A stretch of 64,000 bases of DNA from an uncultured Myxococcales bacterium (GTDB lineage Bacteria; Myxococcota_A; UBA9042). The notes under the pieces were generated by a model that was not told the origin of the DNA, made no database searches, and saw nothing but the letters and a program-made list of their open reading frames with translations. Position numbers and translations under genes: made by a program. How positions within the stretch are numbered: position 1 is the first letter of the stretch; the number at the start of each line of letters is the position of its first letter. Positions 33,198 through 36,100 of the stretch are shown here, in pieces. The DNA lies in assembly GCA_903955385.1 (NCBI GenBank), contig CAJBNH010000135.1:1-64000 (forward strand), given 5' to 3'.

Positions 33198-36100
33198 CTA
33201 GGGCTTGGCTTTGTCCCGCTCCTGCACCACGAACTCGACGCGCCGATTGCGGACCGTCTCGGCCCCTCGTGACCGAGGAATCAGGGGCCGCGTGGCACCG
33301 TAGCCCTTGGTCTCCAGTCGCGCGTGCGGGATGCCGCGCCGGATCAGGGCCTTTCGCACTGCGTCGGCACGCTGACGCGACAGGCGCAGGTTCTTCGCCT
33401 CCGTCCCAATGTGGTCCGTATGGCCAGCCACGCGCAGCTTCTTCAGGTCGTTGTGCTCTCTCAGAACCTTCGCCACCGCATCGACGACGGGCCAGCTCTC
33501 GGGGCGAATCCGATAGCTCTTGTAGGCGAACAGGATCCGGTCCGTGATCTGGATCGCCTCCTGATTCGGGGCCAGCACCGCAAGAGACCGCTCCGGGCAG
33601 CCGTCCTCGTCCTGCACGCCGTTGAATGCCTCGGGCTCATCGGGGCACAGGTCGTCGGGATCCGCCACGGTGTCGCCGTCGTTGTCCCAGTCGGGGCAGC
33701 CGTCGGCATCCTCGTAGTCGTCGAAGTCCTCGGCCGTGTTGGGGCACACGTCGCGCGCATCATCCCGCGCGTCGCCATCGTTGTCCTGGTCGGGGCAACC
33801 GTCGGCGTCTTCGAACCCGTCTGCGTCTTCAGGCACGTTCGGGCACGCGTCCTGACCGTCGTCCGCGCCATCGCGGTCGTTGTCGTCGTCCGGGCAGCCG
33901 TCTTCGTCCTGGAAGCCATCGACGTCCTCTGCGTTCAGCGGGCAAGGGTCGCGCACGTCGGGCAGCCCGTCGTGATCCGTGTCCAGCCGCTCCGCTCGCT
34001 CGCGGGCCTCCTTCTCCGCCTGCAAGCGTCGCCGTTCCGCCTCGTCCAGCTCCTCTTGCAGGTTTGGCGGCGGTGGTGCCCAAGCCAGACCGGCGATCCC
34101 TCGCACGGCCGGCACGCCGAACCCCTCGCGCACACCGACCATCGCGCCAACGGTTGCCACCACGCGGTCGGCCAACCGCACCGACGCCGTCGCGCCCGCC
34201 TCGGCCCGGTCCAGGGCCGCGTCGGCAAACGGCCCTTGCAGCGGTGTTTCCAGATTCACGCCCACGTCCAGCCACGCGCGGTTCCCCGGCACCCACGACA
34301 AACCGGCCGCGGCCGTCAGGGCCGGTCCGTCCTCGATGCCCTGCACCAACGCCTGTCCTTGCGCGCGCACGCCCGCGCTCGCGCCCACCCGCAGCGCGCG
34401 GCGACGGCCGGTCATCACGATCGAAGCGTCTGCGGCGATGCCCTCGCGACCGGTGAAGGCCGCGGTGTCGCCGGTCGGCGCGCTGACACCGAGGTTGAAC
34501 GCCAAGCCCCATGGGGAGCTGCGCTCGTCGAAGGCGACGAACTTTGCGAGCAGGCTCAAGTCACCCGCCGCCCGGCCCGCCAGCGCTGATCCCGTCGCCG
34601 AAGGGGCAGCCGACAGTGTCTCGCCCTGCTGCCAAACGGCGTAGGGAAAGGCGAGCCCCAGCGTCACCCCTCTGGCCACCCGCAGTGACGCCTGTGCCGT
34701 GGCGGTCACGCGGTCGCCCACCAGCTCGCGGAGCACCTCGCCGTCCGGACCCGTCACCACCAGCGGCCGGCGCGCGTAGTCCAGAAACAGGCTGGCGGTC
34801 GGCAGCGTGTCGGGCGTTTGGGTGGCACCGTCCATCGTCAGGATGCCCTGACCATCGAGCGACGGGCGAAAGCGAAGGGTCTGGAAGCCGTCCTCGGCGC
34901 GCGCTTCGGTTGCGGGAAGCAGGGGAAGCAGCACCAGAGCCCACACGAGCCAAGGATGGCCTTGGCGACGCCGCCGGGCGGCCAGCAGGGCCAGCAACGG
35001 CAACAGCAGCCAAAGCCCGGGCCTTGCTGCGTCGGCAGGACCACCCGTTGCCGCGGAACAGCCGGTGACCAGCGAGCCTTGGATGCGGCCATCGACCAGC
35101 GGCCCAGCCGTGTCTGCGGTGTCGGCGTCCGGTCCGCCGTCCTCGCCCGGCATTGGCTTGTTGAAGTCGTCCGCGGGGTTCAGCGGGTCGGTCTCATCTG
35201 CGGCCATGGCGCCGTCGTGGTTCGAGTCCTCGTCGCCGTCGCTCACCCCGCCGTGGTCCGTGTCGGCGACCAGCAGCCAGGTCGTGGTCGTCGGGTCCTG
35301 GTCGGCAACGAATGGGCCGCTCTTGGACGTGCCTTGCGGCGGAGTCACCACGCCGGCTTCGGTGCCGTCGCACAGGCCGTCGCCATCCGAATCGCTGTCG
35401 CGACCGGTCCGCAAGCCGTCGCCGTCATCGTCCAGACCCAGATTGGGCTCGTCGCCGTCGCGCAGGCCGTCGTCGTCCGAGTCCTCGTCCTGCGGCGAGG
35501 TTCCCAGCTTGCTTTCCTCCAGATCGGGGCAGCCATCCTGATCCTGGTCCTTCAGCGTCACGCCAGCGTCGGCGGGATTGCGTGGGTCGCGTTCACCGGT
35601 CTCGAAGATGCCGTCGTGGTCGACGTCTTCGGCGCCGTCGCGCGTACCATCCCCGTCGCTATCCCGGGCGAGCACAAACGTCGTCGTGCTCGGGTCGTCG
35701 TCGGGAAAGAACGCCTTGCGCGACAGGTCGGTATCGGTGCCGGCGGCGGCCAGACCGACCTCGGTTGCGTCGCCCAAGCCGTCGTTGTCGGCATCGCCAT
35801 CCAAGGCCCCCGGCAGGCCGTCGTTGTCTTCGTCCCAGCAGGGGTTCGGCTCCGCGCCGTCCGGCAGGCCATCGTCGTCGCTGTCGGCGTCATCGGGGTG
35901 GGAACCGCAGCGGGCCTCTTCGGCGTCGCTCAGGTCATCGCCATCGGTGTCGGGTCCCACCACCTGCGATGCGGGGTCCAGCGGATCTCCCTCACCGGCA
36001 TCGACTCGCCCGTTGCCGTTGTCGTCCTCTCGGCCGTCGCGGACGCCGTCGCCGTCGCTGTCGCGCAGCAGCATGTGGGTCGTGTGGCTGGGGTCCTGGT

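Follow-up and report, generated by a model that had tools for sequence, protein, structure and literature searches.

A single open reading frame in the window (the whole stretch of 64,000 nucleotides analysed here, from an uncultured Myxococcales bacterium) most probably encodes a polyprotein. Its product would be cut by a myxosortase and by signal peptidase I into the two parts of a TraA/TraB-type surface complex, which would thus be supplied 1:1. The gene displayed the following features:

33198..39542, minus strand: one open reading frame of 2114 aa if begun at ATG 39542 or 2138 aa if begun at TTG 39614, with its stop at 33198 and no in-frame stop before it
39447..39542, minus strand: first signal peptide MSLVLRNRRTRLRWVLAWMASLATFGIATAQA, without lipobox Cys (from the translation; putative cleavage site)
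35160..39446, minus strand: TSP3-type acidic repeats (DxDxDG), predicted calcium-binding stalk (PF18884 TSP3_bac in 6 stretches; CglD and MtsD models match the repeats)
34965..35063, minus strand: internal MYXO-CTERM sorting tag (TIGR03901)
35058..35060, minus strand: Cys codon TGT of the tag, where lipidation and myxosortase action are proposed (invariant among 61 junctions; present in 74 of 74 loci)
34977..35021, minus strand: transmembrane helix 1 PGLWLLLPLLALLAA (hydropathy)
34965..34976, minus strand: RRRR, which closes the tag on the cytoplasmic side and doubles as n-region of signal peptide 2 (72 of 74 relatives have three or more basic residues)
34962..34964, minus strand: CAA codon (a stop in none of the fused relatives)
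34896..34961, minus strand: second signal peptide GHPWLVWALVLLPLLPATEARA, with signal peptidase I predicted to act after ARA ([AVST]xA in 73 of 74 relatives)
34050..34895, minus strand: predicted TraB-like 12-strand outer-membrane beta-barrel domain (homologues in 49 of 52 genomes of the class; low-confidence AF2 model)
33543..33900, minus strand: short TSP3-like repeats separating barrel and OmpA domain, as in TraB (TraB model NF033763 aligns best over the TSP3-OmpA part)
33243..33533, minus strand: OmpA peptidoglycan-binding domain (PF00691, 73.9 bits)

The TSP3-type stalk comprised about 1,430 residues, and the Cys of the tag was residue 1519 when counted from TTG and 1495 when counted from ATG 39542. 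A sequence-only reading of this DNA had described a MYXO-CTERM tail running in frame into a second signal peptide and an OmpA-family protein, and this was confirmed codon by codon: Cys TGT (35060-35058), RRRR (34976-34965), CAA (34964-34962), GTG (34946) and the ARA motif ending at 34896 succeeded each other without any in-frame stop, and no long reading was found in either of the two other frames. Almost 590 residues lay C-terminal to RRRR, so that the tag did not occupy the extreme C-terminus of the protein. The mRNA displayed a perfect 7-bp inverted repeat (GCCAAGG-ccat-CCTTGGC, 34949-34966, minus strand) at the exact boundary of RRRR with the second signal peptide, which might slow ribosomes at the junction. 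Immediately downstream of the gene was a large hybrid histidine kinase (PAS, GAF, HisKA, receiver and Hpt; 29475-33059, minus strand). At 43439-45037 (minus strand), an acyltransferase was joined to an alpha/beta hydrolase (Pfam Acyltransferase and Hydrolase_4).

The tag carried the Cys, the transmembrane helix and the Arg-rich end expected of MYXO-CTERM. Model TIGR03901 matched it (34965-35063, minus strand) with 25.4 bits in a six-frame search of the genome (cut-off 20) and with 19.4 bits, just below the cut-off, in an hmmscan of the 116-aa junction segment. The match was not a mere coincidence. Fourteen out of 16 TIGR03901 matches in the host genome were followed by a stop 33 to 43 codons past the match start; the remaining two, i.e. 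the window tag and one on contig C13, both continued into a signal peptide and a TraB-like OmpA protein. Four more fused paralogues of the host genome displayed the same junction, their tails being absent from the TIGR03901 match list, and 34 of 61 junction segments were matched by this model at E 0.01 or better. The window also harbored a control with an ordinary C-terminal MYXO-CTERM, an N-acetylmuramoyl-L-alanine amidase with a Golvesin domain (45679-48879, minus strand).

The AF2 model of the barrel displayed 12 antiparallel strands at low confidence (pLDDT 53.9) and resembled FapF and other outer-membrane barrels in fold comparison. As the confidence was low, these fold matches were used solely for the designation as an outer-membrane barrel. 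Domain 34050..34895 is thus predicted to be such a barrel on the strength of the modelled strands, the fold resemblance and the similarity of the downstream half to TraB. The TraB model NF033763 gave 190.6 bits against a cut-off of 700, and the threshold for TraB was not reached. The CglD model NF033765 gave 464.6 bits, above its cut-off of 400, from 11 repeat matches; the N-terminus (...GIATAQAADVDG) was devoid of Cys and hence of the lipoprotein signal peptide with lipobox that CglD would have, and the automatic name CglD would be misleading for this protein. Neither a PA14 domain nor a TraA-type Cys-rich stalk was found, a Pfam search of the protein giving only TSP3 and OmpA.

Relatives were gathered by means of the barrel domain. 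All counts of fused loci are lower bounds, taken from those matches whose junctions were read, and genomes and families were tallied from the locus lists. Junctions read in the fetched loci uncovered at least 74 fused loci with the same in-frame arrangement in at least 42 genomes, most of them drafts, and at least 14 families. At least 61 of these loci were found in at least 32 out of 52 genomes of the class, and at least 13 further ones in at least 10 genomes from other groups of the phylum. As this layout is shared by no fewer than 42 related genomes, the gene very probably specifies a real polyprotein that is cut into two partners, and is not the product of a lost stop codon. A scan of the named genome collection with the single protein gave only four very close relatives, all from uncultured Myxococcales MAGs; a profile that included unfused homologues contained no stretch of sufficient conservation for such a scan. 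The host genome displayed six fused copies (contigs C135, which holds the window, C87, C13, C28, C106 and C146) and an unfused one (C137). Fused copies within one genome varied in their N-terminal modules, which were of TSP3, EGF or DUF4215 type.

Three automatic fusion calls were dropped (L079, L097 and L106), and visual inspection added one missed locus (L122). At eight further loci (L062, L071, L112, L124, L140, L145, L156 and L157), unfused homologues were preceded by long open frames that were not counted as fusions; like the three dropped calls, these frames were excluded because they are Arg-rich readings of another frame and because a proper start and signal peptide precede the barrel. 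Locus L113 (G027:C5) displayed three consecutive barrel genes on one contig, two fused and one unfused.

When 61 junction segments were aligned with MAFFT, the Cys was the sole invariant column. Conservation of 90 % or more was otherwise confined to a Gly column, a pair of Arg columns in the basic cluster and the Ala of the signal-peptidase site, at a mean column identity of 20 %. The Cys was located 18 to 45 residues ahead of the basic cluster in 74 of 74 fused loci, a count which is partly built in since the fused set was picked in part by the hairpin pattern; no genuine long fusion without this pattern was met among the loci read. Among four close orthologues, the junction had a dN/dS of about 0.45, four to six times that of the barrel (about 0.12) and the stalk (about 0.08), and Cys, RRR and AxA were nonetheless kept. 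These values suggest that the junction evolves fast outside its processing determinants, as discarded signal peptides do.

A quick tree, with open branches, was built from 125 barrel domains (74 fused and 51 unfused). About 19 changes between the fused and split states were mapped on it, at least 11 of them on well-supported branches, against about 40 with shuffled labels; gain and loss of fusion are indistinguishable on this tree, and the counts are changes of state. Certain clades were stably fused, while fused and split neighbours alternated elsewhere. Six unfused loci displayed an upstream gene with a MYXO-CTERM tail whose stop overlapped the start of the barrel gene, by ATGA in L075, L078, L086 and L140, by GTGA in L152 and by TGATG in L153. 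As an ATGA overlap places the two genes in different frames, their joining requires an indel rather than a lost stop. At three other loci (L073, L076 and L077), the unfused barrel gene overlapped by ATGA an EGF-rich gene without MYXO-CTERM tag, possibly a third way of pairing a stalk with a barrel anchor.

The CAA codon is one transition away from TAA, and the sequence-only reading had considered that a stop was lost there, giving rise to a polyprotein. What stood of this proposal is that two ancestrally separate genes share one frame and probably specify a polyprotein; the recent loss of a TAA did not stand. Thirteen out of 14 members of the window's clade, from independent assemblies, had the fusion at this position, the equivalent codon was not a stop in any fused relative, and split relatives carried an overlapping TGA in another frame. 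The chance of a recent stop loss at CAA 34964, or of a sequencing error, in this one genome is consequently negligible; a frameshift was rejected too. The downstream protein could also, as had been suggested, be translated on its own from GTG 34946, which would make the fusion only apparent. Such a codon is present in the window, and 43 of 74 relatives displayed some ATG, GTG or TTG (mostly the latter two) in the n-region. This start is nevertheless highly improbable: 31 of the 74 fused loci had none of the three codons at the equivalent place and only seven had an in-frame ATG in the interval from the basic cluster to the second helix, no purine-rich site was found close upstream of GTG 34946, and a signal peptide starting at this codon (MWALVLLPLLP...) would forfeit its Arg residues and lack a positive n-region. 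Moreover, the first protein has no stop, so that a readthrough product must arise in any case. With a separate start so improbable, and a signal peptide from GTG 34946 without positive n-region, the second signal peptide takes its n-region from the Arg cluster at the end of the sorting tag, which is therefore common to both signals.

The fusion could also stay uncut, with the first helix, RRRR and the second helix forming an ordinary internal membrane hairpin that holds stalk and barrel together as one protein. The open frame is compatible with this, and two helices joined by a cytoplasmic Arg loop are topologically sound. It would leave unexplained, however, why conservation peaks at the Cys and the Ala of AxA whereas the helices diverge, and why relatives have the same two halves as separate proteins; an outer-membrane barrel and an inner-membrane hairpin would moreover be linked by just a few residues. 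Conservation limited to the two processing determinants and the Arg cluster makes an ordinary helix pair unlikely. A single cut is very unlikely as well. Signal peptidase I, which to our knowledge is universal, would then free the barrel half, and the stalk would either remain membrane-bound through what is left of the hairpin or be shed. It is true that the MrtX cut-off was reached by no genome of the class, and the myxosortase of the host genome, closest to MrtP (193, cut-off 250), fell below the cut-offs of both MrtP and MrtX. Yet the Cys was invariant, a CPBP protein of the host genome passed the myxosortase core model (Mrt_core NF040914, 102.7, cut-off 100), matches to the MrtX model were found in 47 out of 53 relatives, and other proteins of the host genome carried the same tag at their true C-termini. 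In several genomes the myxosortase of the class matched MrtX in two pieces, which were separated by about 120 extra residues in L031 (703-1818, G000:C32).

For a polyprotein cut on both sides, co-translational export of the stalk, the hairpin and the barrel half may be envisaged. Signal peptide 1 would direct export of the TSP3 stalk until the MYXO-CTERM helix halts transfer and leaves the Arg cluster in the cytoplasm. The same cluster would then provide signal peptide 2 with its positive end, allowing re-insertion and export of the barrel-OmpA half. In the inner membrane, lipidation of the Cys would be followed by myxosortase cleavage next to it, towards the stalk, and signal peptidase I would cleave after ARA, towards the barrel; with cuts on both sides, the hairpin would be discarded. 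The stalk would reach the cell surface as a lipid-anchored adhesin, with a possible role in cell adhesion, and the barrel would insert into the outer membrane and grip peptidoglycan. Synthesis as one chain would fix a 1:1 ratio and keep the partners together for complex formation, as overlapping genes would do in split relatives. This route is proposed because MrtX cleaves such tags, in M. xanthus as well as in E. coli (PMC11980579), and because the host genome has both a myxosortase core protein and a type II secretion system, of which the secretin GspD was found. The earlier suggestion of a surface-anchored TSP3 stalk and an outer-membrane anchor produced in equal amounts is supported as probable.

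The cytochrome b/c1 polyprotein (fbcH) is a bacterial open reading frame with an internal signal peptide, which is cut into two envelope proteins; it differs from the present gene in that its first protein is not known to carry a sorting tag. Literature searches for bacterial polyproteins of the build described here gave nothing closer than MXAN_5598 of M. xanthus, an atypical open reading frame with adhesin, internal MYXO-CTERM, barrel and OmpA (Guo, Haft and Wall 2025, PMC11980579). Its authors likened it to TraA plus TraB, suggested a gene fusion and proposed processing of the N-terminal part (PMC11980579). The window protein displayed, as judged from the published description, the same adhesin, internal tag, barrel and OmpA in one frame and is of the MXAN_5598 kind, its barrel part coming from a low-confidence model. 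MXAN_5598 adjoins ftsA/ftsZ, whereas the only ftsZ of the host genome was located on contig C31 and the window on C135; synteny of ftsA/ftsZ with the window gene was not found in the host genome. The main text of that paper treats the protein as rare and isolated and contains no discussion of a second signal peptide, whereas at least 42 genomes are involved here, one of them with six copies.

In M. xanthus, traA and traB overlap by four bases (PMC3325183), much as the six gene pairs above do, and TraA and TraB are present 1:1 (PMC12045341). The likeness to this system resides in a MYXO-CTERM surface protein and a barrel-TSP3-OmpA partner coupled 1:1, from overlapping reading frames, while the window protein differs by the absence of PA14, by a score below the TraB cut-off and by having both halves in one chain. 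HVO_0405 of Haloferax volcanii, an archaeosortase substrate, is also a two-gene fusion, and Western blots showed its mid-protein sorting tag to be cleaved (PMC7157517), an experimental precedent for the cutting of an internal tag. The likeness is limited to a fused gene with an internal sorting tag and implies no claim of sequence relationship; the difference is an archaeosortase (cysteine) system in an archaeal envelope.

Within the literature searched, the breadth of the fusion, the modular N-termini within one genome, the repeated fusion and splitting in recurrent exchange with overlapping pairs, and the double signal with shared Arg are new, as is the evidence from the alignments that the junction retains nothing but its two cut sites and the Arg cluster common to both signals. 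Viruses are well known for polyproteins in which a linker is cut out at both ends and thrown away, but bacteria rarely have them. We lean towards the view that these genes represent a widespread class of bacterial polyproteins, in which a compact hairpin with one shared Arg cluster, substrate of myxosortase and signal peptidase I, delivers diverse adhesins (TSP3, EGF and DUF4215) with their cognate outer-membrane anchors 1:1, and which, through exchange with overlapping gene pairs, has formed or broken up at least 11 times in Myxococcota.

Such proteins may be named CglD or OmpA in annotations and their mid-protein tag overlooked. They would offer a direct natural test of myxosortase and signal peptidase action on neighbouring sites, and a large set of candidate TraA/TraB-like pairs in which a single gene has already brought the right partners together. 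If the proposed class is real, it would constitute a recurrent bacterial route for bringing a receptor and its membrane partner to the same place at a fixed ratio, and would raise what had been a footnote on a single protein of M. xanthus to a general layout among myxobacterial surface adhesins.
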